From: Chloroflexi bacterium bin125
GTDB taxonomy: Bacteria; Chloroflexota; Dehalococcoidia; Bin125
Direction of reading: 5' to 3'
DNA: 64,000 bases
Assembly: GCA_002239025.1 (NCBI GenBank)
Contig: MPNM01000007.1
Span: forward strand, 62,001 to 126,000
This document shows positions 11,563 through 51,658 of this stretch, piece after piece. The notes beneath the pieces are model-generated. The model had not been told where the DNA came from. It searched no databases and saw only the letters and a program-made list of their open reading frames with translations. A program made the translations under genes and the position numbers. Numbering within the stretch: position 1 is the first letter of the stretch; each line of letters opens with the position of its first letter.

Positions 11563-12462
11563 CTAGCGCAGGTTGCGCAACCGGGGATCGAGCGTGTCCC
11601 GCAACCAGTCGCCCATCAGGTTGCCGGTCAGTGAGACCAACAGGATCGCGATCCCCGGCATCCAGATCGGCCACCAGGCAATCGTCATGAAGTTGCGACC
11701 CTCGGAGATCATTGCGCCCCACGATGGCGTGCCGGGAGCAACGCCGATGCTGAGGAAGCTGAGCGCCGCCTCAATCAGGATCACCGACGGCACATCGAGT
11801 GTCGCCATGATCACGATCGTGTTGAGCAGGTTGGGCAGGACATGTCGGAACAGGATGCGCTTGTCGCTGGCTCCGCTGGCTCGAGCAGCAACCACAAACT
11901 CCTGCTCGCGCAGGGAGAGCACATCCGCCCGGACCAGTCGCGCATAACCCGACCAGCTAAAGATGATGATGATCAGGATCACATTGAGCAGGCTGGCCCC
12001 GAAGACCACCGAGATCAGCAACGCAAACAGAATCGCCGGCAACGCCAACTGCACATCGACGATGCGCATCAGGAATCGATCCCACCAGCCCAGCCGCCAG
12101 CCTGCGAGCAGTCCGCACAGGGTCCCAATCAACGCCGACGCCGGGATACACGTCACCACCACCAGCAACGACACCCGAGCGCCGTACATGACGCGAGACA
12201 GGATGTCGCGGCCCAGGTTGTCGGTGCCCAGCGGATGCGCCCAGCTACCACCCTCCTGGAACGCAGGCGGGATCAAACGTTCGATCAGGACGATGTGCTC
12301 TGGGTCGTATGCGGACAGAAGATCGGCAAAGATCCCTGCGACCAGGAACGCGAGCAGAATGATGATCGCCGGTGCGAGCATGGCAACGCGCTGCCATGAC
12401 CCACCCAGACCAACGCCTCGGAGCAGAGACGCCGGCGCCGCTGCGACCGCCCGCGCCGCCAT
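11563..12462 (-). CDS. dppC: Peptide/nickel-type ABC transporter permease, DppC-like (importer 1)
   Basis: A 299-residue inner-membrane permease with about six transmembrane segments. HPLGTDNLGRDILSR is the DppC periplasmic-loop signature, AARASGASDKRILFRHVLPN is the EAA loop that contacts the ATPase, and LSFLSIG is conserved after it. The C-terminus DTLDPRLRNLR is typical. It is the last gene of importer 1 after dppB and the binding protein, overlapping dppB by one base (TAATG). The dpp symbols mark family membership; the substrate could be a peptide, oligosaccharide or other solute. No ATPase gene follows. Confidence 0.9.
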   Translation of the reverse strand: MAARAVAAAPASLLRGVGLGGSWQRVAMLAPAIIILLAFLVAGIFADLLSAYDPEHIVLIERLIPPAFQEGGSWAHPLGTDNLGRDILSRVMYGARVSLLVVVTCIPASALIGTLCGLLAGWRLGWWDRFLMRIVDVQLALPAILFALLISVVFGASLLNVILIIIIFSWSGYARLVRADVLSLREQEFVVAARASGASDKRILFRHVLPNLLNTIVIMATLDVPSVILIEAALSFLSIGVAPGTPSWGAMISEGRNFMTIAWWPIWMPGIAILLVSLTGNLMGDWLRDTLDPRLRNLR

Positions 12463-13400
12463 TATCGAGTTCCTGCTCGGATGCGCGGATCGATGATCGG
12501 ATACGACAGATCGACCAATATGTTGACGACCACAATACTGGTGGAAATGATGAGGATCCCGGCGATCATGACGGGAAAGTCGCCGACCAGGATCGTGTGA
12601 AGCATCAGCCGTCCGATGCCTGGCCAGGCAAAGACCTGCTCGACGATCACGGTGCCCGCGATCATGTAGCCCACCTGGATGCCGAGGATCGTGGCGACAG
12701 GAAGCAGGGCGTGACGTACCGCGTGACGCCAGATGATTGACGATTCCCTGAGGCCCTTCGCCCGCGCCGTGCGGATGAAATCAGTCCCCATCACGTCGAT
12801 CATGCCCGAGCGCGTCAATCGCATGGAGACGGCTGAGGCCAGCAATCCCAGCGTGATCGTCGGCAAGACGAGGTGCTCGACGCCGCCACTGCCGCCGGTC
12901 GGCATCCAGTCGAGCTGCACGGCGAAAAAGAAAATCAGGATGAGGCCCAACCAGAAATTGGGTATGGCCTGGCCGAGTACGGCCAGAAACCTTGCCATCC
13001 AGTCCGTCGGCGTCGCGCGATTGAGCGCGGCGATGACTCCTAGCGGTATACCGAGGACCAGCGAAAAGATCAGCGCCGCTGCGCCGAGTTGCAGAGTCTT
13101 CGGAGCGCGGCTGGTGACTTCACTCAGCGCCGGCCGCGCGCTGATGAACGAGTTGCCTAGGTCGAGTTGGACCGCATCCACCAGGAAGTTGACGTACTGA
13201 ATGCCGATCGGTCCGCTGAGGCCGAGCTGCTCTTTGAGTAGCTCCTTTTCCTCAGCGGTGGTCTGGTCCGTGGTCAAGTACTCGACCGGATTCCTGGCCA
13301 GTCGGGAGACCAGGAAGACAACCGAGAGGACCACGAACACGACCAGGATCCCCTGAAGGATGCGCGACACCAAGATCGTCGAGATGCTTTGAGCACCCAT
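12462..13400 (-). CDS. dppB: Peptide/nickel-type ABC transporter permease, DppB-like (importer 1)
   Basis: A 312-residue permease with an N-terminal membrane helix (ILVVFVVLSVVFLVSRLA), the conserved EQLGLSGPIGIQYVNF cytoplasm-to-periplasm segment, GIPLGVIAA, and the EAA loop TARAKGLRESSIIWRHAVRH. VIVEQVFAWPGIGRL and the terminal LVDLSYPIIDPRIR are family hallmarks. It pairs with the DppC-like protein encoded immediately downstream and receives solute from the lipoprotein encoded 30 bases upstream. Confidence 0.9.
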   Translation of the reverse strand: MGAQSISTILVSRILQGILVVFVVLSVVFLVSRLARNPVEYLTTDQTTAEEKELLKEQLGLSGPIGIQYVNFLVDAVQLDLGNSFISARPALSEVTSRAPKTLQLGAAALIFSLVLGIPLGVIAALNRATPTDWMARFLAVLGQAIPNFWLGLILIFFFAVQLDWMPTGGSGGVEHLVLPTITLGLLASAVSMRLTRSGMIDVMGTDFIRTARAKGLRESSIIWRHAVRHALLPVATILGIQVGYMIAGTVIVEQVFAWPGIGRLMLHTILVGDFPVMIAGILIISTSIVVVNILVDLSYPIIDPRIRAGTR

Positions 13401-13430: not shown

Positions 13431-15314
13431 CTAGGTGACGAGTGGTCGAATGCCCCAGAAGCCGCTGTAGTCGCGTGAGTTGCCTTTCATGTCCCACTCA
13501 AGGTCGTCGCGCATGATTCCAGTACCGACGGTCTCGAACAGGAACAGCCAGGAGGCGTTGGTGTAGATCCGTTCGGCGAGCTTGTTAAGAGCCACTGCGC
13601 GCTTCGCCGGATCGAACTCTGTCGCCTGCTCGTCCACGAGATCCTGAATGTCCGTTTCGGGGTACTCCGCGACCGAGAGGGTGCCGCCGATCGCAACCTC
13701 GGCAGCGATCACCTGGAACGGGTCCGCCGACTGATTGGTGAAGTAGTAGTGCAGCCCCGGCACATCGCGCTGGGCCATCCGAGCACGGAAGTCGGGCAGC
13801 GGATCGAGCTGCAGGTTCGTGCGGATGCCCACCACATCGAGGTACTGCTGGACAGATAGCGCGATCACGTCGGTGAGCGCGAAGAAGCCGGCGGTGCCGT
13901 AGAAGTCCGACTCGAAGCCCTCGCCGTATCCGGCCGCGTCCATCAACTGCATCGCCTTCTCGACGTTGTATTCCATCGTCAACGGACCCGACTGTTCCGG
14001 CTGCATCCCGCCGAGCTGCCGGGTGCCGATGCCGTACGCCCGCTGTTCACGTCCGGTAGCCAGCGTTGTGTAGATGGTCTCCACGTCAACGGCGTGGTTC
14101 ATCGCCTGACGGACGCGAAGGTCTCGGTATGGGTTGCTGCCGTCCTCGAACATCGGCACGATGGTGTTAGGGAAGATCGTGTGTGGGCAACAGCCCGGAT
14201 CGAACAGCACTTCGTAGCCGGGTTCATCAACGAACTCCTGCACCAGCTCCCATTCCAGCGACGGAGCGACATCTGCCTCACCCGCCTGGATCGCGGCCAG
14301 CCGCGCGACCGGCTCTGGTCGCACCGACTGAATGATCTCCTTGGCCCAGGGGCGGTGCTGGCGATTGAGGTCTTCGTAGCCGATTGGGTATGCGTCATTA
14401 CGGACGCTGCGCACAGCGATGTCGGGCTCGAACGATTCCAGCTTGAAGGGTCCGCTGGCCAGCCCGTCGCGGTTGTATCCCTCGTCACCCAACTCTTCGA
14501 CTCGATGCTTAGGGACAAGCGGCATCGTCGTGCCGATGCTGTTCGGCGCTGTCACCTCAGACCTCACGGGAATCCGCGCGGTCAAGTCGTCAATAACGGT
14601 GACCTCATCATTGACCTGCGCGACGATGTACGCGACGCCCGACTCATAGACGCCGCTCTCGTTGTAAGCGGCATTCCCGGCTGAGCGGTCGATTGAAAAC
14701 TTGACATCTTCTGCCGTCAGAGGCGTGCCATCATGCCAGGCGTGGCCCGGGTTCACGTGCATGAGTACCGCCGAAAAGTCGTCAATCCACTCGTAGTTAC
14801 CCACGAGCGGCACGATGTCGCGCGTCACCAGGTCATATTGCAGCAGACGGTCAAAGTGCAGCGGTCCGTTCCACTTGAGCGTGTAGTTGCCCGGCCCCAT
14901 GACATCGAGGCCGCCGACCGCGTTTGGGACCGCCACAGTGACGGTGCGTTCCCAGTCGGTGTCGCCTTCGCGCGACAGGTCCACAGGCTCCTCTTGCTGC
15001 TGCTGTTGCTGCATGGCCTGTTGCTCTTGTTGCTCGGTCTGATCCGCCTGCGCAACGGCCTGCTGCTGCTGTTGGTCCTGCTGTTCTTGCATCGCCTGCT
15101 GCTGTTGCTGCTGGTCCTGATCAGCCTGAGCCACGGCCTGCTGCTGTTGTTGCTGCTGTTGCGCGACCTGAGTCGCGGAATCGTCGTCGTCATCGCCGCA
15201 ACCGACCAGCGCCAGTCCTGCCGCCCCAACCCCGGCCCGTCCCGAGGCGCGCAAGAGGGCGCGTCGGGTCATACGTGATCGGCGCATTCGCTGCCAGTAG
15301 TTTCGTTCGGTCAT
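13431..15314 (-). CDS. Tat-exported lipoprotein, family 5 solute-binding protein (importer 1)
   Basis: A 627-residue precursor. The N-terminus has TRRALLR (twin Arg) and a short hydrophobic stretch ending in the lipobox LVGC (Cys39), followed by GDDDDD. Residues about 47-115 are a linker of Gln runs broken by AVAQAD and AM units. The mature domain is SBP_bac_5 type: the QAGEADVAP strand, the VRQAMNHAVDV hinge helix and the EYNVEKAMQLMDAAGYG motif. It captures solute outside the membrane for the adjacent permeases. The promoter at 15423-15451 matches those of the other three binding proteins. Substrate unknown. Confidence 0.9.
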   Translation of the reverse strand: MTERNYWQRMRRSRMTRRALLRASGRAGVGAAGLALVGCGDDDDDSATQVAQQQQQQQQAVAQADQDQQQQQQAMQEQQDQQQQQAVAQADQTEQQEQQAMQQQQQQEEPVDLSREGDTDWERTVTVAVPNAVGGLDVMGPGNYTLKWNGPLHFDRLLQYDLVTRDIVPLVGNYEWIDDFSAVLMHVNPGHAWHDGTPLTAEDVKFSIDRSAGNAAYNESGVYESGVAYIVAQVNDEVTVIDDLTARIPVRSEVTAPNSIGTTMPLVPKHRVEELGDEGYNRDGLASGPFKLESFEPDIAVRSVRNDAYPIGYEDLNRQHRPWAKEIIQSVRPEPVARLAAIQAGEADVAPSLEWELVQEFVDEPGYEVLFDPGCCPHTIFPNTIVPMFEDGSNPYRDLRVRQAMNHAVDVETIYTTLATGREQRAYGIGTRQLGGMQPEQSGPLTMEYNVEKAMQLMDAAGYGEGFESDFYGTAGFFALTDVIALSVQQYLDVVGIRTNLQLDPLPDFRARMAQRDVPGLHYYFTNQSADPFQVIAAEVAIGGTLSVAEYPETDIQDLVDEQATEFDPAKRAVALNKLAERIYTNASWLFLFETVGTGIMRDDLEWDMKGNSRDYSGFWGIRPLVT

Positions 15315-26603: not shown

Positions 26604-28433
26604 ATGACTGAGCGGAACTATTGGTCTCGGATGAAGCATCGCAACCTGTCACGTCGATCCTTGCTGAGAGCGAGCGCCCGCGCCGGAGTCGGAGCGGCCG
26701 GACTAGCACTGGTCGGTTGCGGCGATGACGATGACGACGGCCAGCAGGCAGCCGCGCAGGTCCAGCAGGCTCAGGATCAAGTCGAACAGCAGGCCGATCA
26801 ACAAGCGCAGCAGCAGCAGTCGCAGACCGCAACTGCCGACGAACAGCAGGAGCAGCAAGCCGCTGCCCAGGCGCAGGCCGCAGCCGACGGCGAACCGAAA
26901 CAGGGCGGCATCGTTCGGATGGTGATGTCGGACGGCGGTATCTTCGACCCTGCGATCGCGATTCATGGCGGTACCTTCGCTGGCGTGCATCAGATTTACG
27001 ACTGGCTCAACTACCTCGACGAGGGATTTGTGATCACGTCGGGCATGGCAGAGCTGCCAGAAGTCGTAGACGAGCTCAACTTCATCTACACGATCAAACC
27101 CAACGTCTACTGGCACGACAAGCCGCCCTTGGAGGGTCGGCAGTTCACCGCTGAGGACGCCGTGTTCGGACTCCAGCGATTCGGCTTTGACAATCCTGAG
27201 TTCGTCTTTAAAGACCGCTTCTCGCTGGTCGACAAGTTCGAAGCTGCAGACGAGTTCACGATGACCGTTCAGGCCAGCGAAGTATTCTCGCCGATTCTGA
27301 GCGCAATCGCTGAAGACAACATGCTGATAGTCTCGCGCGACGCGGTGGAGGCGTTCGGCGACGAAGCGATCTCGACTGATTTTGAGGCCCAAATCGGCAC
27401 CGGGGCGATGGTGGGCGCATCACGGGAGGCGGATGTCGAGCTGAATCTGACCCGCAACCCGAAGTACTACAAGGAAGGCTTGCCGTACTTCGACGGTTAC
27501 AAGGGCGTCAATCTGGGCGACGACGCGATTCGCATCGCAACATTTGTGAATGGTCAGACCGACTTCCTCAACTATCAATGGTTCGGTCGACCGGTCGATT
27601 TCGATGCCGCCGTTACAGAGATGGGCGAAGAGGCGGTCACCGGGGTTCCGAATCCTGTGACCTACGGGATGGCAACACACATCCATACCGAGGTCGAACC
27701 GTACACGGATCCGCGTGTGCGAACCGCAGTCCATCTCGCCGCTGATCGCGAGCAACTCATAGCCCTTTCGCTCGGAGAACTGGTGATCGGCGGCCCGATC
27801 GCCGTCGCAATCGCTCCATATGGACGCACGGAAGATGAGTTGCGACAACTCCCCGGCTACCGCTCGGGCGATCTGCGGCAAGAAGACCTGGCGGAAGCTA
27901 GGAGACTGCTGGAGGCCAGCGGCGCTGACCTCGACAACATCCCGCCGATGGAGATTTGGGCGCCGGATGCATCGGACTACGCCCAGGTGTTGCAGCAAAA
28001 CCTCGGCGAGGTGGACTTCAACTTAGACATCCTCGAGTTAACTACTGCCGACGCATTGGCCGCGCGACAAAACCGCGAGTTCTCGATGATCATGCTTGGT
28101 CAGCAGGGCGCGTCCGATCCGGACCTGCTCTACAACGATTTGCACACAACTGGAGGCCAGAACTACGGCAACTTCTCCCACCCGGAGTTTGACGCGCTGG
28201 TCGAAAAGGGGCGTTCGGTCTTTGACGTCGAAGAACGCAAGGCGATCTACGACGAGGCGCAAGACCGGCTGCTGAACGAGTGGAACCCGCGACTCTACTG
28301 GTCTTGGAGCACCGTAGTCATTGCCTTCCGTTCGTATCTGAAGGGCTTCCGCCCTACACCAGGAGTTACGGCGTCGAACGCGATCCTTTGGGGGATGTGG
28401 TTCGATGAGATCCCTGAGGGCGCACAGTCTTAA
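26604..28433 (+). CDS. Tat-exported lipoprotein, family 5 solute-binding protein (importer 2)
   Basis: A 609-residue precursor starting MTERNYWSRMKH, with SRRSLLR as the twin-Arg motif and lipobox LVGC followed by GDDDDDG. A Gln/Ala linker of about 60 residues (QQADQQAQQQQSQ and similar) precedes PKQGGIVRM, where the SBP_bac_5 domain begins. Domain features include AEDAVFGLQRFG, DPRVRTAVHLAADREQLI (hinge helix) and LAEARRLLEASG. ATG 26604 has AGAAGAGA just upstream and aligns with the start of the three paralogues; the frame is open back to 26514 but that region is the promoter. Permease genes follow at 28485. Confidence 0.9.
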   Translation: MTERNYWSRMKHRNLSRRSLLRASARAGVGAAGLALVGCGDDDDDGQQAAAQVQQAQDQVEQQADQQAQQQQSQTATADEQQEQQAAAQAQAAADGEPKQGGIVRMVMSDGGIFDPAIAIHGGTFAGVHQIYDWLNYLDEGFVITSGMAELPEVVDELNFIYTIKPNVYWHDKPPLEGRQFTAEDAVFGLQRFGFDNPEFVFKDRFSLVDKFEAADEFTMTVQASEVFSPILSAIAEDNMLIVSRDAVEAFGDEAISTDFEAQIGTGAMVGASREADVELNLTRNPKYYKEGLPYFDGYKGVNLGDDAIRIATFVNGQTDFLNYQWFGRPVDFDAAVTEMGEEAVTGVPNPVTYGMATHIHTEVEPYTDPRVRTAVHLAADREQLIALSLGELVIGGPIAVAIAPYGRTEDELRQLPGYRSGDLRQEDLAEARRLLEASGADLDNIPPMEIWAPDASDYAQVLQQNLGEVDFNLDILELTTADALAARQNREFSMIMLGQQGASDPDLLYNDLHTTGGQNYGNFSHPEFDALVEKGRSVFDVEERKAIYDEAQDRLLNEWNPRLYWSWSTVVIAFRSYLKGFRPTPGVTASNAILWGMWFDEIPEGAQS

Positions 28434-28484: not shown

Positions 28485-29441
28485 ATGCGCAACTACATCT
28501 TTCGTCGTTTGCTGCTGCTGCCGATCACGTTGCTGTTCCTCTCGATTTTCGTGTTCGCGATGATTCGTCAGGTGCCGGGGTCGGTGATCGATGCGCGACT
28601 TTCGGCCGGGTTTCCGGGTACCGCCAACGCGGACGACCGGGCCAAGCTGGAGGCGCACTTCGGTCTCGATAAACCGATGCATGTCCAGTATGTCAATTGG
28701 ATTGGTCAGGTGTTCACTGGGGATTTCGGTACGTCGTGGCTGACCAAAGAGGACATCCTTGATAACTTCGGCCGTCGCATGCCGGTCACGATGGAGCTGT
28801 TGCTTCTGACGCTGCTTGTCTATGTGCCGCTCGGCATAGGAACGGGGGTGTGGTCGGCTGTTCGTCAGAACCGGGCTGACGACTACATTATTCGTTCGTT
28901 CACGATTCTCTTTCTCGCAGTACCAAACTTTTGGTTGGCGACGCTGGTAATCGTTGTCCCGTTGGTGCTCTGGGGTTATGCCCCGCCGGTGCCGTACTCG
29001 CAGCTGTGGGAGGATCCCGCTACGAACATCGTGCAGATGATTGTGCCAGCGATCATCTCGGCACTGGCCGGGGCTGCTGTGCTCGGTCGGGTGGCGCGCT
29101 CCGAAATGTTGGAAGTGCTTCGCCAGGACTACGTGCGCACGGCCTATGCCAAAGGCTTGACTGGGTACGTGGTGGTGATCCGTCACGCGCTGCGAAACAC
29201 GATGATTCCGCTCATCACATTAATCGGACTCGTGTTTGCCACGGGCATCGCTGGTTCGGTGATCGTCGAGCAGATTTTCGCGATTCCAGGTATGGGTCGC
29301 TACTTCGTGCAGTCGGTGCTGACCAACGATCTACCGGTCGTGCAGGTGTGGACCCTAGTTTTCGGCGCGGCGTTCATCCTCCTCAATCTCCTGGTCGACA
29401 TCAGCTACGGCTTCTTTGACCCGAGGATTCGTGTCCAATGA
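28485..29441 (+). CDS. dppB: DppB-like ABC transporter permease (importer 2)
   Basis: A 318-residue permease: FLSIFVFAMIRQVPGS as first helix and periplasmic turn, AHFGLDKPMHVQYVNW, YVPLGIGTGV, EAA loop TAYAKGLTGYVVVIRHALRN, IVEQIFAIPGMGRY and the C-terminus LVDISYGFFDPRIR. The loop around residues 165-180 (WGYAPPVPYSQLWEDP) is close to that of importer 4. It follows the binding protein after 51 bases and overlaps the DppC gene by four (ATGA). Confidence 0.9.
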   Translation: MRNYIFRRLLLLPITLLFLSIFVFAMIRQVPGSVIDARLSAGFPGTANADDRAKLEAHFGLDKPMHVQYVNWIGQVFTGDFGTSWLTKEDILDNFGRRMPVTMELLLLTLLVYVPLGIGTGVWSAVRQNRADDYIIRSFTILFLAVPNFWLATLVIVVPLVLWGYAPPVPYSQLWEDPATNIVQMIVPAIISALAGAAVLGRVARSEMLEVLRQDYVRTAYAKGLTGYVVVIRHALRNTMIPLITLIGLVFATGIAGSVIVEQIFAIPGMGRYFVQSVLTNDLPVVQVWTLVFGAAFILLNLLVDISYGFFDPRIRVQ

Positions 29442-30355
29442 GTCAAGCGCAGCCCAACACCGCTCAAGCACAGGCACAGCCGAACACAATCGTGTTCGAT
29501 GAGTTCGGTATCGCCGAGAAGCCGCCGCGCAGCGTGCGCGCGCGTCGCTTGTTGCGACAGCATCCGCTGGGCGCCTTTGGTTTGTTGCTCGTGATCGTGG
29601 TGGTGTTTCTGGCTGCCTTCGGTCCGATGTTCGCCGGCGACGCCGACACGATTTCGCCTGACATCCTCCACGGAATCAGCGAAGAATACTGGTTCGGAAC
29701 GGACCGGCTCGGTCGCGACTATCTGGCGCGAGTGATCGCTGGGGCGCGGCTCTCGATGTCGATGGCATTGGGGGCAATGGTGATCGGCGTGGGCACGGCG
29801 CTGGTTTGGGGAATGCTCTCGGCATACGCTCAGAAATCGTTCGACTTGCTCTCGCAGCGGGTGATCGACATGCTGCTCGCGTTTCCGGGTCTTGTCCTGC
29901 TACTCCTGCTGACACAGGTGATCGGTCGGGGTTGGCAGTCTGTGGCACTGGGGATGGGAATCATCTTCGCGGTGAGCATGGTGCGGATCGTGCGGGCGAG
30001 CGCCCTCGCAACGCTCGCCGAGGCATATGTCGATTCTGCGCGCGTGGTCGGGGCGACGCCGTATCGGATTCTCTGGCGGCACGTCTTGCCGAACATGGGA
30101 CCGCCGTTGTTGATCTACGTGACGACACTGCTCGGCGCGGCCATCCTGTTCGAGGGCGCGCTTTCGTTCCTTGGCCTCGGCGTGCCGCCGCCGGAACCGT
30201 CTTGGGGACGCATGCTGACTGAGTCTCGAACGCTGTGGAAGTACCCACACCTGAGTATCTTCCCCGGCGTCGCCATGACCGTCGCCGTGCTCGGATTCAA
30301 CCTGGTCGGAGACTCGATCCGAGATATCTTCGACCCGCGCCTGCGCGGGGCTTAG
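29438..30355 (+). CDS. dppC: DppC-like ABC transporter permease (importer 2)
   Basis: A 305-residue permease with a long cytoplasmic N-terminus (about 45 residues, Gln- and Ala-rich), WFGTDRLGRDYLARV loop, EAA loop SARVVGATPYRILWRHVLPN and LSFLGLGVPPPEPSWG. The C-terminus RDIFDPRLRGA is typical. It ends four bases inside the convergent PaREP1-like gene. No ATPase gene follows, so the transporter needs DppD/F-type subunits from elsewhere. Confidence 0.9.
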   Translation: MSQAQPNTAQAQAQPNTIVFDEFGIAEKPPRSVRARRLLRQHPLGAFGLLLVIVVVFLAAFGPMFAGDADTISPDILHGISEEYWFGTDRLGRDYLARVIAGARLSMSMALGAMVIGVGTALVWGMLSAYAQKSFDLLSQRVIDMLLAFPGLVLLLLLTQVIGRGWQSVALGMGIIFAVSMVRIVRASALATLAEAYVDSARVVGATPYRILWRHVLPNMGPPLLIYVTTLLGAAILFEGALSFLGLGVPPPEPSWGRMLTESRTLWKYPHLSIFPGVAMTVAVLGFNLVGDSIRDIFDPRLRGA

Positions 30356-32135: not shown

Positions 32136-32882
32136 ATGACCACGATTCAGGCTCCAACCGACATCGACGCCGCCATTGGCAACGTGCTCGACATCATCGT
32201 GCAGGGTTGGGATCCGCTGCAGATCGTCCTGTTCGGTTCCCGCGCCCGGGGCGACCATCGCGAGGACAGCGACATCGACCTGCTCGTGGTCCTTGAGCAA
32301 TGCGAAGACAGGAAGCAAACGCGATGGGACATCCGAGAGGCCTTGCCGAAACCGTTGGTCCCGACGGATGTGATCGTGACCACGCCCACGCTGTGGCTCA
32401 AACGCGCCGGTCTGGTCGGCGCAGTCGAGCGCAAAGCGCTCATCGAAGGTCGCATACTCTACGTGCGAGGAGGCGGCGATCCGGTGATCGAAACAGCGCT
32501 GCACCTGCTGCAACTGTCGTTGGGTGACCTAAACGGCGCTGTGTTCTTGTTGGGTTCGCCCAGCCAGGATCCGAGGCTTGCGTGTTTCCATGCGCAACAG
32601 GCCGCCGAGAAAGCTCTCAAGGCAGCGTTGGAGCTTGAGCACAACGACTATCCCCGAATCCATGCACTCCACGAGTTGCTTCCTCAGTTGCCACGGACCT
32701 GGCCTGCCCATGAGCTTGATCTGAACCTCAAGCGGCTCAGCGCCCTGGTTGTCGAGGCCAGATACCCCGATGTCGACAAACTCCCCACCAGATCTGAAGC
32801 CGTTGAAGCCGTTGCCGATGCCCGGCTGATCGTCAACGCTATCGTCGAGGAGTTTCAGCGCCGAGGCCACGAACTGCCATAA
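32136..32882 (+). CDS. Single-chain MNT nucleotidyltransferase-HEPN protein
   Basis: 248 residues. Residues 1-110 are a minimal nucleotidyltransferase: LFGSRARGDHREDSDIDLLV (GSRARGD 34-40 and the Asp46-x-Asp48 metal pair). Residues about 115-245 are a HEPN domain: CFHAQQAAEKALKAAL and IHALHELLPQLP. MNT and HEPN normally come as two genes forming an antitoxin-toxin pair in which MNT adenylylates HEPN, or as resistance-type single proteins (KNTase-like). Here they are fused in one frame with no stop between them. Role as toxin-antitoxin or small-molecule modifier is open. Confidence 0.82.
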   Translation: MTTIQAPTDIDAAIGNVLDIIVQGWDPLQIVLFGSRARGDHREDSDIDLLVVLEQCEDRKQTRWDIREALPKPLVPTDVIVTTPTLWLKRAGLVGAVERKALIEGRILYVRGGGDPVIETALHLLQLSLGDLNGAVFLLGSPSQDPRLACFHAQQAAEKALKAALELEHNDYPRIHALHELLPQLPRTWPAHELDLNLKRLSALVVEARYPDVDKLPTRSEAVEAVADARLIVNAIVEEFQRRGHELP

Positions 32883-32951
32883 CTCCGACGCCTCTGCGTC
32901 CGCCGCCTTATCTTGCTCTTGACCGAACAGCAGGCTGAGCAGGAGCTACAG

Positions 32952-35228
32952 ATGACCATGCAAGAAGACTTTGGCGGCGTAATTGGTCGAACCTTCCGCG
33001 AGTCCGAACCGTGGTGGCCGGAACTACCGACCGCTCCCCAGGATCGGCCCAACGTTGTCGTGATCCTCTTCGACGACACCGGATTCTCACATCTGGGCTG
33101 TTACGGCTCGACAATCGCAACACCAAACATCGACAAGCTGGCTTCTAACGGTCTGCGCTTCACTAACTTCCACGTGACGGCGCTCTGTTCGCCGACGCGC
33201 GCTTCGTTGCTTACGGGACGCAACCACCACGCCGTTGGGATGCGCTCGATATCCAGCTATGACCCCGGCTATCCCAATATGCGCGGCGCGGTCAGCCGCA
33301 ATGCCGCGACGATGGCCGAGATGCTGCGCGACGAGAACTACGCCACCTTCGCCGTGGGCAAGTGGCACCTGAATCCGTCCGAGACCTGCTCGCAAGCTGG
33401 ACCATTCAACGATTGGCCGCTGCAGCGCGGCTTCGACCGCTACTACGGCTTCCTCTCCGGCGAGACCGACCAGTATTACCCCGACCTCTGCTACGACAAC
33501 CACCTGATCGACCCGCCGAGGACGCCCGAGGAGGGCTATCACTTCACCGAGGACATCGTTGACCAGGCCACAGGATTCCTGCGCGACCACCAGTCGGTCT
33601 ACCCCGGACAACCCTTCTTCCTTTACTTCGCCCTTGGCGCGACACACTCTCCACACCAGGCGCCGCAGGAGTACATCGAGCGATACCGCGGCCAGTTCGA
33701 CCAGGGCTGGGATGAGGTGCGTGAAGAGTGGTTCTCCCGTCAGCTCGAGCTGGGCGTGATTCCCGAAGGCACTGAGCTCGCGCCGCGCAATCCGGGGGTC
33801 AAGCCCTGGGATGATTTCTCACCCAACATGAAACGTTTCCTGGCTACGTTCCAGGAGGCCTTCGCCGGTTTCTTGACCCACACCGACGAGCAGATCGGGC
33901 GCCTGATCGCCTATCTCGACAACTCAGGCCAGCTCGACAACACCATTCTGTTGCTGATGGCCGACAACGGCGCCAGCCAGGAAGGCGGGCCGCAGGGTGT
34001 CTCCGACACGGCCCGCTACGGTCAGCCGCTGCTCGACGACGTTGATGAGGCGCAGTCGCGGCTGCATGAGATCGGTGGACCTCGCAGCTCGCCCAACTAT
34101 CCTTGGGGCTGGTCGCAGGCAGGCAACACGCCGCTCAAGTGGTACAAGCAGAACACGCACGGCGGCGGCGTTCGCGTCCCGCTGATCGTACACTGGCCCG
34201 ACCGGATCAAGGACGGCGGCAGCTTCCGTCGGCAATTCCATCATGTCAGCGACGTGCTGCCGACCGTGCTGGAATCGGTCAAGGCAACCCCACCCGACGA
34301 ATACGCGGGCCTGACGCAGATGCCGGTCAGCGGCACCAGCTTCGCCTACGCCTTAGAGGATCCCAACGCCGACACCGCCAAAGAGGTGCAGTATTTCGAG
34401 ATGCTCGGTCACCGCGGTATCTGGGTCGATGGCTGGAAAGCAGTCACGCGCCACCAGAAGAACGACCCCTGGTCGGACGACGAATGGGAGCTGTACCACG
34501 TCGCCGAAGATTTCTCCGAGGCCAACAACCTCGCGGCCGAGGAGCCGGAGAAACTGCGAGAGCTGATCGACCGTTGGTGGGTCGAGGCCGGCAAGTACGG
34601 CGTGTTGCCACTAGACGACCGCAGCTTCCAGCTCGGCGGTCCAACGCAACGTCCAGGGGGACCACACAACGGACTGAAGTATCGCTACACCCCGCCAGTG
34701 TCACATCTACCGGGTGAAATCGCGCCAGCAGTTGGCCTGGGATCATGGACGCTCGACGCCGAGATCGAGCGCGACGGGCTGGGTGACGGAGTGATCTTTG
34801 CCCGGGGATCAGTCATGGGGGGGATCAGCTTCTACATCAAGGACAACCGCCTGCGAGTCGACTACAACGCCTTCACCGAGGTGACGCAGATCGTCTCCGA
34901 CATCGAACTGCCCGACGGTCGCTGCACGATCGGCATGAGCATGGACGGCGAAGCACCGTCGGCGCCCGGTCATGTCACCGTCCTCATCAACGGAGAACGC
35001 GCCGGAGAAGGCGAAGTGCCGTTCCTCGTGCGCGGCGGATTCGGCGGACGCGGTGGAGCTGACATCGGCTCGGACCGCAAGTCGCCGGTCACCGACTCCT
35101 ATGAGCCGCCGTTCGAATTCGAGGGGACAATCCACGAGTTGACCCTTGAAGTCACGCCATACCCGAAGTCGGGAGCGGCATACGAAGCGGCGCGGAACGC
35201 ATTCAAGCTGCTGATGGCTCAGCAGTAA
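32952..35228 (+). CDS. Type I sulfatase (arylsulfatase), copy 1
   Basis: A 758-residue alkaline-phosphatase-fold sulfatase. Metal ligands Asp41/Asp42 (LFDDTG), the formylglycine site Cys79 in LCSPTRASLLTGR, KWHL, and LMADNGASQEGG are visible. The C-terminal part from about 590 (GSWTLDAEIE, FYIKDNRLRVDYN) looks like a jelly-roll/LamG-like domain. There is no signal peptide, so it should act in the cytoplasm. ATG 32952 is chosen because AGGAGC precedes it and the N-terminus then aligns with copy 2 (IGRTFRESEPWWP). It is activated by the FGE encoded downstream. Sulfate-ester substrate unknown. Confidence 0.9.
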   Translation: MTMQEDFGGVIGRTFRESEPWWPELPTAPQDRPNVVVILFDDTGFSHLGCYGSTIATPNIDKLASNGLRFTNFHVTALCSPTRASLLTGRNHHAVGMRSISSYDPGYPNMRGAVSRNAATMAEMLRDENYATFAVGKWHLNPSETCSQAGPFNDWPLQRGFDRYYGFLSGETDQYYPDLCYDNHLIDPPRTPEEGYHFTEDIVDQATGFLRDHQSVYPGQPFFLYFALGATHSPHQAPQEYIERYRGQFDQGWDEVREEWFSRQLELGVIPEGTELAPRNPGVKPWDDFSPNMKRFLATFQEAFAGFLTHTDEQIGRLIAYLDNSGQLDNTILLLMADNGASQEGGPQGVSDTARYGQPLLDDVDEAQSRLHEIGGPRSSPNYPWGWSQAGNTPLKWYKQNTHGGGVRVPLIVHWPDRIKDGGSFRRQFHHVSDVLPTVLESVKATPPDEYAGLTQMPVSGTSFAYALEDPNADTAKEVQYFEMLGHRGIWVDGWKAVTRHQKNDPWSDDEWELYHVAEDFSEANNLAAEEPEKLRELIDRWWVEAGKYGVLPLDDRSFQLGGPTQRPGGPHNGLKYRYTPPVSHLPGEIAPAVGLGSWTLDAEIERDGLGDGVIFARGSVMGGISFYIKDNRLRVDYNAFTEVTQIVSDIELPDGRCTIGMSMDGEAPSAPGHVTVLINGERAGEGEVPFLVRGGFGGRGGADIGSDRKSPVTDSYEPPFEFEGTIHELTLEVTPYPKSGAAYEAARNAFKLLMAQQ

Positions 35229-36267: not shown

Positions 36268-38541
36268 ATGACGACGAATGAAGAGTTCGAAGGACGGATC
36301 GGGCGCACATTCCGTGAGTCCGAGCCCTGGTGGCCCGCCCTGCCGACCGCACCTCAGGACAGGCCCAATGTCCTCATCATCCTCTTCGACGATCTTGGCT
36401 TCGCCCACCTCAATTGCTACGGCTCGACGATCGAGACACCCAACATCAATCGTCTTGCGTCGAATGGTCTGCGGTTCACCAACTTTCATGTCACACCACT
36501 CTGCTCGCCGACCCGTGCATCACTACTGACCGGACGCAATCACCACACGGTCGGCATGCGATCGGTCACCCAGTTCGACTCGGGCTTTCCCCACATGCGC
36601 GGCGCGATCCCACGCAACGCGGCAACGATGGCGGAGCTCCTTTCCGACGAGAGCTACGCAACCTTCGCCGTAGGCAAGTGGCACCTCTGCCCGGTCGACT
36701 CGAAGGGTCAAGCCGGACCGTTCCACGACTGGCCGCTACAGCGAGGATTCGATCGCTACTATGGCTTCCTCTCGGGCGAGACTGATCAGTTCTATCCCGA
36801 ACTCGTCTACGACAACCACCTGATCGACCCACCAGGCCGGCCGGAGGAGGGCTATCACCTGACCGAGGATCTGGTCGATCACGCCGTCGGATTCCTGCGC
36901 GATCATCAGTCGGTCTATCCCGGCCAGCCATTCTTCCTCTACTGCGCGCTCGGCGCGACGCATGCGCCGCATCAGGCGCCGCAGGAGTTCATCGATCGCT
37001 ATCGAGGCAAGTTCGATGTCGGCTGGGACGCGATCCGCGACGAGTGGTTTGCTCGGCAACAGGAAATGGGTGTCGTCCCGGACGGTACCCAACTGTCGCC
37101 ACGTAACCGAGGCGTTGAGGCCTGGGACGACATGTCCGACAACGCCCGAAACTTTGCGGTGGCGCTGCAGGAGGCGTTCGCCGGATTCCTCGAGCACACC
37201 GACGCCCAACTCGGCCGCCTGTTCTCGTACCTGGAGTCGTCGCAACAGTTGGACAACACCATTGTCTTGCTGCTGGCCGACAATGGCGCGTCGCAGGAAG
37301 GCGGAGCGCAGGGCGTGTCGGACGAGCCACGGCTATTCGGCCCCGCCGACGACCTCGATGAAGTCCAGTCGCGCCTGCATGAAATCGGCGGGCCGCGCTC
37401 GGCCTCGAACTATCCCTGGGGCTGGGCGCAAGCTGGCAACACGCCACTCCGCTGGTACAAGCAGAACACCCACGGCGGCGGTGTTCGTGTGCCCTTGATT
37501 GCGCACTGGCCCGACGGTATCTCCGACCGTGGCGCGTTGCGACGCCAGTTCCACCATGTCTCCGATGTCCTGCCGACCGTGCTGGAGACGCTCGGCGTTG
37601 AACCACCGTCGAAGCGCGCCGGCCAGGAGCAGATACCCATCGCCGGTACCAGCTTCGCCTACGCCTTCGACGATCCAGACGCCGATACGACAAAGGAAGC
37701 CCAGTACTTCGAGATGTTCGGACACCGCGGCATCTGGGTCGATGGCTGGAAGGCGGTGACCTGGCATCGGTTCCGGACCGAGTGGTCAGACGACGAATGG
37801 GAGCTCTTCCACGTCGATGAGGACTTCTCTGAGACCAACAACCTCGCCGAGCAGGAGCCGGAGAAGCTGCGTGAGTTGATCGACCGCTGGTGGGTCGAGG
37901 CCGGCAAACATGGAGTACTCCCGCTAGACGACCGCACGATCGAAATCAACCAGCCGGCGCAGCGCCCCGGCGCGCCGCACTATGGCTTGCGCTACCACTA
38001 CACCCCGCCGATCGCCCACATGCCGGTCGAGACATCGCCGGCAATCGATCTGGGCAGTTGGACGCTTGAGGCCGCAGTATCAAGATCGTCCGAGGAGCAG
38101 CAGGGCGTGATCTTCAATCGTGGCTCAATCCACACCGGAGTCACGCTCTACATCAAGGACAACCACCTGCACTTCGATTACCACGCCTACGATGACTGGT
38201 CTCGGATCCGGATCGACCGACCCTTACCTGCTGGTGACATAGTGATTGGCGTCTCGTTGGAGAGCGAAGCGCACAATGGCCCGGCGCAGGTCACGTTCTC
38301 AATCGACGGCGAGGAAGCCGGCTCCGGTCAGGTGGACGTGCTCCAGCGACGAATCCTCTTCGCCCACGGTGAGTTCGACATCGGCGCCGACCGCCGCTCG
38401 CCGGTCGGCGACAACTACGATCCGCCCTTCGAGTTCGAAGGAGAGATCCACACCGTCGACATCGAAGTCACACCTTTCGAAGGCGAAGCTGCATTCCATG
38501 CACAAGCCGAACGGCAGCGCCAGACGATGTCGAGGCAATAG
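36268..38541 (+). CDS. Type I sulfatase (arylsulfatase), copy 2
   Basis: A 757-residue paralogue of the gene at 32952 with the same layout: Asp41/Asp42 (LFDDLG), Cys79 in LCSPTRASLLTGR, and LLADNGASQEGG, then a C-terminal beta-sandwich (LGSWTLEAAVS, LYIKDNHLHFDYH). Sequence similarity runs the full length, and differences concentrate in the C-terminal domain, which may set substrate range. No signal peptide. GGAG lies just before ATG 36268. It ends the three-gene sulfatase cassette. Confidence 0.9.
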   Translation: MTTNEEFEGRIGRTFRESEPWWPALPTAPQDRPNVLIILFDDLGFAHLNCYGSTIETPNINRLASNGLRFTNFHVTPLCSPTRASLLTGRNHHTVGMRSVTQFDSGFPHMRGAIPRNAATMAELLSDESYATFAVGKWHLCPVDSKGQAGPFHDWPLQRGFDRYYGFLSGETDQFYPELVYDNHLIDPPGRPEEGYHLTEDLVDHAVGFLRDHQSVYPGQPFFLYCALGATHAPHQAPQEFIDRYRGKFDVGWDAIRDEWFARQQEMGVVPDGTQLSPRNRGVEAWDDMSDNARNFAVALQEAFAGFLEHTDAQLGRLFSYLESSQQLDNTIVLLLADNGASQEGGAQGVSDEPRLFGPADDLDEVQSRLHEIGGPRSASNYPWGWAQAGNTPLRWYKQNTHGGGVRVPLIAHWPDGISDRGALRRQFHHVSDVLPTVLETLGVEPPSKRAGQEQIPIAGTSFAYAFDDPDADTTKEAQYFEMFGHRGIWVDGWKAVTWHRFRTEWSDDEWELFHVDEDFSETNNLAEQEPEKLRELIDRWWVEAGKHGVLPLDDRTIEINQPAQRPGAPHYGLRYHYTPPIAHMPVETSPAIDLGSWTLEAAVSRSSEEQQGVIFNRGSIHTGVTLYIKDNHLHFDYHAYDDWSRIRIDRPLPAGDIVIGVSLESEAHNGPAQVTFSIDGEEAGSGQVDVLQRRILFAHGEFDIGADRRSPVGDNYDPPFEFEGEIHTVDIEVTPFEGEAAFHAQAERQRQTMSRQ

Positions 38542-41911: not shown

Positions 41912-43672
41912 CTACGCCTTGAGCCAGAGGTCTTCCTTGTAGACCTTGCCGGACACAATCTGAGAGTAGAAGCCTCCCACACGGTCGTGATTGTAGGCGC
42001 CAACGTTGGCAGCGCCGGCGTAGGGAAGCAGCCACGGCGATTCGGCGTAGAGCTCGTTCCAGTCGGTGAACAACTGTTGCCGCTCGGCGGGCGTCGGTCG
42101 TGAAGCAAAGCCTTCCAGAATTGCTGTGTACCTATCCGAGATCTCAGCTACTGCGTTGACGGGTTGCCGGAACTGGTAGTTCATGTTCGGCAGCGTCTCT
42201 GGTTCCATCCAGAAGAAGCCCGTACTTGCCATGTACAGGCCAGGCATCTGTCCTGCCAGGAACAGCTCGATCCATTCCGCGCGGTCGATCACCTTGATCG
42301 TGACCTTCAGTCCGATGGCGTTGAAGTTCGCCTGAATGATCTCCGGGGCGCCGGTTGGAATCCAGCCCTCGAAGATATGCATGTCCAGTTCCGTTCCCAC
42401 CAGTCCAGCCTCTTCCAGCAGCGCCCTGGCACCCTCGGGGTCGTAGGCAAGGTCGTCGTACTGCGAGTCATACGCACTCGAGTGTGGCGGCCACATCTGG
42501 TTCACGATCGGCATCACGCCATAGAACACGTCCTCGTGGATCCGCTCGCGGTCGATTGCCTTTTGCAGCGCACGCCGGAAGCGCGGATCGTCGTTGGCCG
42601 GGTGACCGCCGCCAAGAGCTGTCTGGGTCGGTCCTACGACCCAGTACCCGCCAACCGCGCCGACGAAGGTGGTGAGGTGCTCTAACTCGCTCATGCGGTT
42701 GTATTGCGGTAGAGGAATGGTGGCCATGTCGAGCTCTCCGCTCTCCAAAGCAAGCACGATCGTGTCCTCGTCGGCAATCTTGCGGTACTCAATCGAGTCG
42801 AGGTGCGGCTGCACGTAGTGATTCTCGTGCGGGACCGACACCCACTTCGCTCCTGGCTCCCATTGGTCAAAGTCGAACTTGAAGGCACCGCTGCCGTTGA
42901 CTTCCTCCATCGCGGCGAGAGCTGTGATGCTGTCGGCGTCAGCGATCGGCGCGAAGGTGATCAGGTCGTAAATGACCGGCCCCGGCCAGTTCGGGTGGTT
43001 GAACTGCACCGTCACGTCATCGATCACTTCGATCGAGTCGAGGTACACGCCTGCGAGCCCACGCACCTGGCTGTTCGGCGTGTCCTCCCAGTTCATGGCC
43101 TCATAACTGAGTTTCACAGCTTCTGCGTTGATCGGCTTGCCGTTGTGGAACTCGAGCCCCGGACGCAGCTTGAAGATCGTGCTTGTCGCATCAGCGTTCT
43201 GCTCCCAAGACTCCGCGAGCCGTGGCTCTGGCTCCAACGTGTCTCCACGCTGCGCCAGCCAGTCCCAGATGGAGGCATCCGGCGGCTGAGTGAATCGGCC
43301 CTCGGCGATCGCGTATGGCAGGGTGACGTCATCCTCGAAGTTCGTCGTGTCGCCAGCGATCAGCCTGCCGCCCCGCTTCGGTCCATCGTCCGCCTGCTGA
43401 GCCTGGGCGACGGCGGCCTGCTGCTGCTCTTGCTGCTGCATCGCCTGTTGCTGATCCTGCTGATCAGCTTGCTGTTGCATCGCCTGCTGTTGTTGTTGCT
43501 GTTGCGCCTGTTGTTGCGCGACCGTCTGCTGATCTCCATCGTCGTCATCGTCTCCACAGCCAATCAACATGATCCCGGCCGCGCCGATGCCAGCACGGGC
43601 AGAGGCTTGCAGCATCGACCGTCGGCTGTACTGCCGTTTCTTCATCCGTTGCCAATAGTTGCGCTCGCTCAT
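41912..43672 (-). CDS. Tat-exported lipoprotein, family 5 solute-binding protein (importer 3)
   Basis: A 586-residue precursor starting MSERNYWQRMKK, with SRRSMLQ as twin-Arg motif and lipobox LIGC followed by GDDDDDGD. A Gln-rich linker of about 55 residues (QQQAQQQQQQQAM, QQADQQDQQQAM) precedes PKRGGRLIAG. The binding domain shows LRPGLEFHNGKPINAEAVK, RFRRALQKAIDRERI and DPEGARALLEEAG, all SBP_bac_5 hallmarks. ATG 43672 aligns with the paralogues; the frame extends to 43753 across the promoter. The mature protein is anchored to the outer face of the membrane. Confidence 0.9.
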   Translation of the reverse strand: MSERNYWQRMKKRQYSRRSMLQASARAGIGAAGIMLIGCGDDDDDGDQQTVAQQQAQQQQQQQAMQQQADQQDQQQAMQQQEQQQAAVAQAQQADDGPKRGGRLIAGDTTNFEDDVTLPYAIAEGRFTQPPDASIWDWLAQRGDTLEPEPRLAESWEQNADATSTIFKLRPGLEFHNGKPINAEAVKLSYEAMNWEDTPNSQVRGLAGVYLDSIEVIDDVTVQFNHPNWPGPVIYDLITFAPIADADSITALAAMEEVNGSGAFKFDFDQWEPGAKWVSVPHENHYVQPHLDSIEYRKIADEDTIVLALESGELDMATIPLPQYNRMSELEHLTTFVGAVGGYWVVGPTQTALGGGHPANDDPRFRRALQKAIDRERIHEDVFYGVMPIVNQMWPPHSSAYDSQYDDLAYDPEGARALLEEAGLVGTELDMHIFEGWIPTGAPEIIQANFNAIGLKVTIKVIDRAEWIELFLAGQMPGLYMASTGFFWMEPETLPNMNYQFRQPVNAVAEISDRYTAILEGFASRPTPAERQQLFTDWNELYAESPWLLPYAGAANVGAYNHDRVGGFYSQIVSGKVYKEDLWLKA

Positions 43673-45823: not shown

Positions 45824-47713
45824 TCAGATGTTGTTGAACCAGAGGTACTTGTAACCCAACCCCTTGGGGAACCCGAAGAAGGGGATCAGTTCGAAGCCCT
45901 CCACATGCTCCTGCGCTGTCCAGCCTGCCGGCCATTGCGCAATGTATGCCGACCACATGTGCTCTGCCTCCGCCTCGAAGACCTTCTCATACAAGGGGAT
46001 GCGGTCGTCCTGGCTGGCCGGGATTGCGGCATCCCAGACCAACTGCTCGGTCGACTGAAGATTGGCCAGCACCTGGTCGTTGGGATACTGACTGAGGTCC
46101 GCCCGACCTGTACGCGGCCCGCCCTCCGGCGATCCGTACATCCAGTTCTGCAGACCCTCGAACTTCGGTCGTAGGACCGGGTCGGGATCAAACGGCGACT
46201 CCCAGGACAGCGTCGAAATCGTCCAGTCGGTCGACGCCAGGAGGCGGTCGATGATCACGGCCTCTGTGCCCTTGATGAACTCCATCTCGATCCCGACGTC
46301 ACGCAACTGCGCATTGACCGGTTCGGTGACGACCGTCTGGAACTCGGCGGTGAAGCTGAGCTGGACACCCTTCACCCCGTCGCCGAAGCCGGCGGCGTCC
46401 ATTAGCTCGTGCGCCATCTGCTGGTCTTGTTCGCCGTAGTAGTTCTTGTCCTTCGGCAGCGCCCAGCTTTCCACCGATACGTTTGCTCGCGCCGGCTGCC
46501 CGAGTCCCTCCCATGCGACGTCGTTGATCGCATTGCGGTCGAGCGCCTTGTTGTACGCATGCCGCAGGCGCGGATCGCGGAAGATGTTCATCCCCTCGTT
46601 GGCGTTCGGGTTGAGGTTGAACCAGGACATCGTCCAGGTCTGCGCCGTGCCCTGGATCACCTGGCGGCCGTCCGCTTCCAGGTCCGCGCGGAAGTCGGAG
46701 TTGATTCCACCGGTGGGGAAGAAGATGTCGATGTCGCCATTGAGGTACGCGTTGAGCGCGGTGTTCTGGTCGGGAATGATGTTCTGTACGAACCCGTCCA
46801 GGTGGACGTTCTCGTTGTCCCAGTAACCGTCCCAGCGTTCGCCTACCCAGCGCTCGCCGGGCTCGTGCACGACGTGCTTCAGGTGACCGGCGCCGACCGG
46901 ATTGGTGATCGCCGTGTCGAAGTGTTCCGGCGAGATCAACAGGCCGGTTCCCGGGAACTGCTGGAAGAAGACCAGCGTCGGACCGAATGGCTCGGTGTTG
47001 ACCATCTTCCAGGTCGAAGCGTCGGTGGCCTCGAAGTTTGCCGCCTTGGCGATTCCGCCGCGGTTGCGAGTCCCGCCGGCAAGGTCCTCGGTGTCGCGAA
47101 TCCGCTCCATGTTGAGTTGTACCGCATTCGCGTCGACCGGGGCGCCGTCGTGGAAGATCGCGCCGTCACGCATCGTGAAGATGTAGGTCACGTCGTCGGG
47201 AATCTCGATGTTGGAGGCCAACATCGGCGTGACTCTCGCCTGGCTGTCGAAGCCGATCAGACGGTCGTAGATGTGCTGCCAGTAGCCCAGCGCATCGCCG
47301 CCGCTGACGCCGATATGCGGGTCAAATCCACCGGAGGGATCCTCGAACCAGCTGTGTTGCAGGATGCCACCGCGCTTCGGCCCGCCGGTCGCTTGAGCGG
47401 TCTGTTGCGCTTGCTCCTGCTGCTGCGCCTGCGCAACCGCAGCCTGCTGTTCCTGATCTTCCTGCTGCATGGCCTGTTGTTCGGCTTGCTGCTCGGCCTG
47501 GTCCTGCTGCATTGCCTGCTGTTGTTGATCGGCCTGCTGCTGAGTCTGCGCCGCCGCCGGCTGATCGTCGTCATCGTCGTCGTCGTCGTCGCCGCCGCAA
47601 CCGACCAGCGCCAGCCCAGCCGCGCCAACCCCAGCCCGCGCCGAGGCCCGCAACAGCGACCGCCTGCTCAACTGGCGATGCTTCATCCGCTGCCAATAGT
47701 TGCGCTCGCTCAT
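45824..47713 (-). CDS. Tat-exported lipoprotein, family 5 solute-binding protein (importer 4)
   Basis: A 629-residue precursor starting MSERNYWQRMKHRQ, with SRRSLLR and lipobox LVGC followed by GG and nine Asp, the longest acidic run of the four copies. The Gln-rich linker spans about 70 residues (QQQADQQQQAM, QAEQQAEQQAM). PKRGGILQHSW starts the SBP_bac_5 domain; DGAPVDANAVQLNMERIRD, DPRLRHAYNKALDRNAI and AHELMDAAGFG are conserved. Upstream in-frame GTG 47725 is possible, but ATG 47713 matches the paralogues. It serves the permeases at 44683 and 43760. Confidence 0.9.
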   Translation of the reverse strand: MSERNYWQRMKHRQLSRRSLLRASARAGVGAAGLALVGCGGDDDDDDDDDQPAAAQTQQQADQQQQAMQQDQAEQQAEQQAMQQEDQEQQAAVAQAQQQEQAQQTAQATGGPKRGGILQHSWFEDPSGGFDPHIGVSGGDALGYWQHIYDRLIGFDSQARVTPMLASNIEIPDDVTYIFTMRDGAIFHDGAPVDANAVQLNMERIRDTEDLAGGTRNRGGIAKAANFEATDASTWKMVNTEPFGPTLVFFQQFPGTGLLISPEHFDTAITNPVGAGHLKHVVHEPGERWVGERWDGYWDNENVHLDGFVQNIIPDQNTALNAYLNGDIDIFFPTGGINSDFRADLEADGRQVIQGTAQTWTMSWFNLNPNANEGMNIFRDPRLRHAYNKALDRNAINDVAWEGLGQPARANVSVESWALPKDKNYYGEQDQQMAHELMDAAGFGDGVKGVQLSFTAEFQTVVTEPVNAQLRDVGIEMEFIKGTEAVIIDRLLASTDWTISTLSWESPFDPDPVLRPKFEGLQNWMYGSPEGGPRTGRADLSQYPNDQVLANLQSTEQLVWDAAIPASQDDRIPLYEKVFEAEAEHMWSAYIAQWPAGWTAQEHVEGFELIPFFGFPKGLGYKYLWFNNI

Positions 47714-51599: not shown

Positions 51600-51658
51600 A
51601 TGACTCAGGCAACTCCTTGGTCGATTCACACCTTTGTGACACTGAGAGACCCCACCAA

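Follow-up and report, generated by a model that had tools for sequence, protein, structure and literature searches.

What is the function of the long glutamine-rich segments found just after the lipobox cysteine and an acidic run in four substrate-binding proteins encoded at this locus? The window, that is the whole stretch of 64,000 nucleotides analysed, belongs to contig C20, in a draft genome of 3.68 Mb. Among named relatives, those closest to the first of the four genes (gene A) come from metagenome bins of Dehalococcoidia and Chloroflexota, and several of the bin names, as we read them, suggest an association with marine sponges. The positions of the genes and of the segments within them are collected in Table 1.

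Table 1. Binding-protein genes, permease genes and linker features in the window (positions in the window; strand as + or -).
Feature	Position	Strand	Details
Gene A, SBP_bac_5 lipoprotein, 627 aa	13431..15314	-	Pfam PF00496, E 2.1e-47
Gene A permeases	12462-13400 and 11563-12462		BPD_transp_1 pair adjoining gene A
Gene A Tat-type leader, start codon to residue before lipobox Cys	15201..15314	-	MTERNYWQRM..TRRALLRASGRAGVGAAGLALVG, followed by C
Gene A lipobox Cys and GDDDDD	15180..15200	-	Cys 15198-15200, GDDDDD 15180-15197
Gene A Gln-rich linker	14994..15179	-	62 aa, 60% Gln
Gene B, SBP_bac_5 lipoprotein	26604..28433	+	PF00496, E 1.2e-34; likely start 26604
Gene B permeases	28485-29441 and 29438-30355		BPD_transp_1 pair adjoining gene B
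Gene B lipobox Cys and GDDDDD	26718..26738	+	Cys 26718-26720, GDDDDD 26721-26738
Gene B Gln-rich linker	26739..26888	+	50 aa, 44% Gln
Gene C, SBP_bac_5 lipoprotein	41912..43672	-	PF00496, E 2.7e-61; likely start 43672
Gene C permeases	40810-41760 and 39890-40810		BPD_transp_1 pair adjoining gene C
Gene C lipobox Cys and GDDDDD	43538..43558	-	Cys 43556-43558, GDDDDD 43538-43555
Gene C Gln-rich linker	43388..43537	-	50 aa, 58% Gln
Gene D, SBP_bac_5 lipoprotein	45824..47713	-	PF00496, E 2.7e-49; likely start 47713
Gene D permeases	44683-45648 and 43760-44686		BPD_transp_1 pair adjoining gene D
Gene D lipobox Cys, GG and nine Asp	47564..47599	-	Cys 47597-47599, GGDDDDDDDDD 47564-47596
Gene D Gln-rich linker	47387..47563	-	59 aa, 49% Gln

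All four genes match PF00496 above the cut-off and adjoin permease genes, and are therefore identified as SBP_bac_5 binding proteins of ABC importers. A lipobox (LVGC or LIGC) follows a hydrophobic stretch in each of them, as in bacterial lipoproteins, and the leader has a twin-arginine motif (S/T-R-R-x-L/M-L) before its hydrophobic region, as in Tat substrates. Every linker is placed between the lipobox Cys and the PF00496 domain. Its Gln content, 44–60%, compares with 4–5% in the mature domains of the same proteins. Solved structures of binding proteins match protein P0004 from residue 111 onward only, past the linker; since no match starts before that residue, the linker lies outside the structure-aligned parts. 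The genome encodes peptidoglycan transpeptidases and has one lgt gene (PF01790 at G000:C20:25670-26455, E 4.7e-45), and thus a route to lipid anchoring exists and a cell wall is probably present.

The original prediction for these genes was of Gln-dominated linkers after the lipobox Cys and an Asp run, and this arrangement is seen in all four proteins. Some of the details have to be adjusted. The Asp runs are of 5–9 residues as described, but in gene D they are preceded by two Gly and not one. The AVAQA, AM and ADQ units said to occur in each linker are not all present in gene B, which lacks AM and has AAAQA in place of AVAQA. The length, given as 50–70 residues, is 50–62 in the four genes. 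The idea of a spacer, first acidic and then neutral, that separates the lipid anchor from the binding domain and differs in length by paralogue is supported. The observation is thus real but was drawn too narrowly, because such linkers are not peculiar to the four genes.

Other genes in the window have unusual features of their own. The gene at 32136-32882 (+) encodes an N-terminal nucleotidyltransferase and a C-terminal HEPN domain in one chain, in other words a fused MNT-HEPN toxin-antitoxin-like pair. Two large sulfatases (32913-35228 and 36268-38541, +) are encoded near each other, on the downstream side of the permeases of gene B. At 51617-53302 (+) a DNA methylase (N6_N4_Mtase) and an Mrr-type restriction endonuclease-like domain are joined in one protein, and at 53539-55035 (-) there is a tryptophan-halogenase family protein.

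Across the genome there are 33 SBP_bac_5 matches. A query with the leader peptide gave 30 strong matches, all of them SBP_bac_5 genes, and the linkers analysed below are those of the 29 where one cutting rule worked. These 29 Tat-type linkers are 44–81 residues long (mean 64) and contain on average 51% Gln. The genome contains 69 occurrences of (CAR)6, meaning six Gln codons running, and none of the reversed control pattern, so that the linkers are far beyond what chance would produce. On this reading of the genes, almost all nutrient-binding proteins of this Dehalococcoidia bacterium would be anchored to the membrane via a spacer of 44–81 residues that is about half Gln.

The habit extends beyond the Tat-type set. 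Among Sec-type binding proteins, L002 has a Gln-rich linker and L001 and L014 are without it. A Gln-rich stretch after the lipobox, usually less extreme, is present in the Sec-type proteins L087 (PstS-like) and L103 (SBP_bac_3-like), and a milder one in L104 (alpha/beta-hydrolase-like), L105 (M23-peptidase-like) and L106 (of unknown kind), these five being named by reading of their sequences. In the sample of about 300 kb of the genome that was used as a lipoprotein census, and which includes the window, the few other lipoproteins have linkers with 8–12% Gln or no linker. Extreme Gln content therefore characterises the SBP_bac_5 set, and milder enrichment is found widely. The reading frame of L087 (G000:C16, ~9879) also repeats a 59-letter stretch, and its binding domain is apparently tandem-duplicated.

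On the basis of these observations, we hypothesise, with a probability of roughly 0.72, that the Gln-rich segments act as membrane stalks in ABC-importer binding lipoproteins that are sent out through the Tat pathway. Once the protein is across the membrane, signal peptidase II would cleave it just ahead of the lipobox Cys; the lipid, whose attachment is suggested by the lipobox and the lgt gene, would hold this Cys in the membrane. The acidic patch of D4–D9 next to the Cys would then lie at the membrane surface. The spacer of about 44–81 residues, rich in Gln, Ala and Glu and with a core poor in Pro and Gly, would carry the binding domain off the membrane, where it could reach solutes and dock on its own permease. 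Distance to the permease had been proposed as the reason for the linkers, and permease reach may be part of the role in binding proteins. It cannot be the general reason, since the hydrolase-like, M23-peptidase-like and unknown lipoproteins carry similar, less extreme linkers.

The standard deviation of linker length is 3.3 residues when pooled over five orthologue sets (n=33), as against 10.4 residues in the 29 paralogues (Levene P 5e-5); a further set, ‘B2’, was left out because it had collected neighbouring paralogues. Much of this contrast is explained by the greater divergence of the paralogues, and at a mature identity of 50–70%, orthologue pairs and paralogue pairs both differ in length by a median of 4 residues. 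There has nevertheless been ample time for the linkers to change, because the identity of Gln codons in the linkers of orthologues is 0.59–0.68, compared with 0.61 by chance. Orthologous linkers show indels of a few residues. Their similarity is 0.75–0.83, higher than the 0.57–0.61 of paralogous linkers, and so the sequence of the linker is not free. The comparison of orthologues that had been proposed for these linkers therefore has a mixed outcome: linker length and some of the linker sequence have been kept, and close relatives have the linker too. Gene conversion of a leader-linker cassette was considered and is not supported. For genes A, C and D the leader DNA is about as similar to orthologues as to the best paralogue, or more so, and for gene B the two are about equal; synonymous sites are near saturation in this comparison. 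Among paralogues, leader DNA similarity and linker similarity are related with a rho of 0.34, and neither tracks mature identity, which is mostly near 30%.

The order of the Gln codons within linkers is not random. Repetitive CAG and CAA codons had been proposed to favour length changes by slippage, and this is not supported by the sequences: CAA codons break up the CAG runs, and linkers of orthologues differ little in length. The longest pure CAG run in the 29 linkers is four codons, too short for a slippage-prone (contingency) repeat. Runs of five or more CAG codons number zero, against 11.3 in within-linker shuffles, which hold the composition of the linker fixed, and about 25 would be given by the codon usage of the mature domains. 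The result is the same in 32 orthologue linkers from other genomes (zero against 9.7 shuffled), these linkers being related to each other and so not fully independent. In the whole of this genome there is no (CAG)5. It occurs in 8 of 15 genomes of the genus, with one to seven matches each, and the limit on CAG runs is therefore not absolute. CAA makes up 28% of the Gln codons in linkers compared with 12% in mature domains, a shift at the third position that is partly regional, as the codons of Ala, Asp, Val and Thr are shifted as well. We also considered, and rejected, a general tendency for identical codons not to stand side by side: the Asp runs and the Ala codons of the same genes show no effect, and mature Gln and Glu codons show a weak tendency. 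Avoidance of CAG runs may act at the DNA or RNA level and not via the protein.

It had also been proposed that the linkers are flexible. The composition-based Uversky charge-hydropathy rule does classify all 29 as disordered (margin mean −0.149, max −0.091), but it is the only indicator to do so. Besides Gln, the linkers contain 21% Ala, 7% Glu and 3% Met, and these four helix formers make up 82% of the residues, while Gly and Pro together make up 3.9%. The mean helix cost per residue is 0.42 kcal/mol in linkers and 0.65 kcal/mol in mature domains. Pro and Gly are concentrated towards the linker ends, leaving a Pro/Gly-free stretch that averages 45 residues compared with 38.8 in shuffles. Acidic residues recur with a period of 3.5–3.6 (z of 5, or 4 without tandem paralogues, both values being inflated by words common through descent). 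AlphaFold2, run on the segment of gene A with five orthologues, predicts one helix over residues 4–70 with a mean pLDDT of 83. Run on the whole of P0004 with 11 relatives, it again draws the linker as a helix, in a model with a mean pLDDT of 31 and an unfolded binding domain. AlphaFold2 tends to draw repeats of Gln, Ala and Glu as helices, and its helix is therefore a lean and not a proof. A coiled coil was rejected, as hydrophobic residues have a period of 4.5 and not 3.5 and no heptad was found. Taken together, the Pro/Gly-poor core, the acidic period and the AlphaFold2 helix suggest that a semi-rigid helical stalk is no less likely than a floppy tether.

In relatives, the spacer is found more widely than its composition. 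Four other genomes of the genus have 10, 18, 48 and 60 occurrences of (CAR)6, and those of other families of the class mostly have none and at most 11. Within the genus, all orthologues of genes A–D have a Gln-rich linker where the leader is present. In other genera the spacer is kept and filled by Ala/Glu, Ala/Pro/Glu, Ala/Ser/Asn or Gly/Thr/Pro. The relative of gene D in G018 (53% mature identity) has AAPAAPAAAAAQAEEQAEEQAMEEDEQAQAAEQAMDDDEEEEQAAAAA, and the filling is Ala/Pro/Glu in G016, Ala/Pro/Ser/Asn in G042, Ala/Pro/Gly/Thr in G060 and Gln in G017. In a set of 66 linkers drawn from 8 genomes, 67% of the compositional variance is accounted for by the genome that a linker comes from (permutation P 0.0005), and 56% when the present genome is excluded (permutation P 0.0005); both P values overstate the significance because paralogues within a genome are non-independent. 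Since the Pro-rich or Gly/Thr-rich linkers of sister genera cannot form the same helix, what the class shares is the spacer and not its fold.

Comparison by eye indicates the same swap of composition in an apparent Sec-type family of binding proteins (L002, L130, L136, L148 and L132). In this family, recognised by LRIARGEPITLDPALVTD / LRLPGDDPLTLDPALVTD, these five members have a lipobox, and L135, L144 and L137, from genomes of other families, appear by eye to have a transmembrane helix instead. In G042, a genome of another family of the class, the binding lipoproteins L122, L146, L163 and L164 have Asn where the Asp run would follow the Cys (CGSSNNNK, CGGGNNN), which suggests that the residue after the lipobox also follows lineage. 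Matches of P0002 and P0003 in relatives (L196, L198, L210, L216 and L217) have one TAG inside the matched stretch, which may lie ahead of the true start. A wider proposal can be made, that linker composition is a lineage dialect across unrelated lipoproteins, and that in this genus the outcome has been Gln/Ala helical stalks whose length is specific to each gene and in which slippage is blocked by selected interleaving of CAG and CAA. We offer it tentatively and consider it doubtful in this full form. If true, it would mean that synonymous codon order is selected to keep the length of a protein ruler constant.

Of the other explanations, the strongest has the spacer as a flexible, disordered tether, an extended hydrophilic random coil in which only length matters. 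The Uversky result fits this well, as do the linkers of sister genera, whose Pro-rich or Gly/Ser/Thr-rich sequences cannot be long helices, and E. coli lipoproteins are spaced by disordered linkers (PMC12826056). The abundance of helix formers and scarcity of Gly and Pro, together with the acidic period, the long Pro/Gly-free core and the AlphaFold2 helix, all point the other way, and we would put such a tether at somewhat under even odds. Free drift of the repeats has much less in its favour. If CAG/CAA repeats expanded and contracted by slippage, nearly neutrally, length would reflect drift or phase variation; the low-complexity composition, the 44–81 range of paralogue lengths and the small indels between orthologues could be read in this way. 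However, long CAG runs are missing where 11–25 are expected, are equally missing from the orthologues and are absent genome-wide, and orthologue length has stayed nearly constant while Gln codons turned over to chance identity. We regard this explanation as very improbable.

Two further explanations give the segment a role in export or sorting. A long unfolded spacer could allow the lipobox Cys to meet Lgt and signal peptidase II in the middle of translocation, any tether function after export being secondary. Of the 33 SBP_bac_5 genes, 29 were classed as Tat-type and as having such a linker, and Tat systems tolerate unfolded linkers of 75–110 residues between signal and folded domain (PMC13186574). 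The same study, however, finds that linkers reduce the efficiency of directional Tat transport (PMC13186574); moreover, the Sec-type lipoproteins L002, L087 and L103 of this genome are also Gln-rich in the linker, and there are Tat-type binding proteins in relatives with a short linker or no clear one (L151). An export aid is accordingly judged unlikely. Least probable of all, to our minds, is that the acidic run sorts the proteins to the outer surface, as in Bacteroidetes lipoprotein export, for which the resemblance of C-G-D-D-D-D to the SDDDD proposed for Bacteroides fragilis can be cited (PMC5080379). A binding protein that serves an inner-membrane permease would be expected to remain close to that membrane, and other genera of the class replace the Asp run (CGSSNNN in G042). 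In addition, Chloroflexota are usually held to be monoderm. The membrane stalk is thus the reading that we retain.

Literature searches returned no description of these Gln-rich linkers. The stalk is nonetheless an unusual form of a known thing, the lipoprotein linker, and the most interesting part of it is the ordered mixing of CAG and CAA together with a slowly changing length. The linkers of lipoproteins are commonly regarded as featureless. In this genome, a single protein family carries one kind of linker in 29 natural length variants, through which it can be tested whether the stalk acts as a ruler, whether it is required to be stiff or floppy, and also whether bacteria order synonymous codons to guard low-complexity coding repeats from slippage.

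One close comparison is with the disordered N-terminal linkers of the E. coli outer-membrane lipoproteins Pal, RcsF and LpoB, which are likewise spacers right after the lipidated Cys and whose length can matter; in Pal, length acts as a spacer (PMC12826056). Those linkers belong to the outer membrane and are tied to Lol sorting (PMC12826056), whereas the stalks described here are about 50% Gln, occur in nearly all binding proteins of one genome, are helix-prone and are on proteins that are mostly predicted to be Tat-exported. OppA, DppA, AppA and NikA (SBP_bac_5, cluster C) belong to the same fold family, according to Pfam and to sequence matches in the PDB, and also have paired BPD_transp_1 permeases; the difference is that here a Gln-rich stalk precedes the parts that align to the solved structures. 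In the Bacteroidetes lipoprotein export signal (SDDDD, K-(D/E)2; PMC5080379), acidic residues likewise come directly after the +1 Cys. That signal serves export to the outer surface in diderms, and the likeness here is one of sequence. It consists of a polar or basic residue and then at least two acidic ones, within +2 to +6; in C-G-D5 the acidic run is at the place of the export signal, but is preceded by Gly and not by Ser, Lys or Gln. Finally, Gln-rich regions have been reported as the most conserved kind of compositionally biased region in bacteria (PMC8004648). The present linkers resemble these in being biased towards Gln, and differ from them in occupying one architectural place, common to paralogues and unrelated lipoproteins, and in being written in mixed codons.
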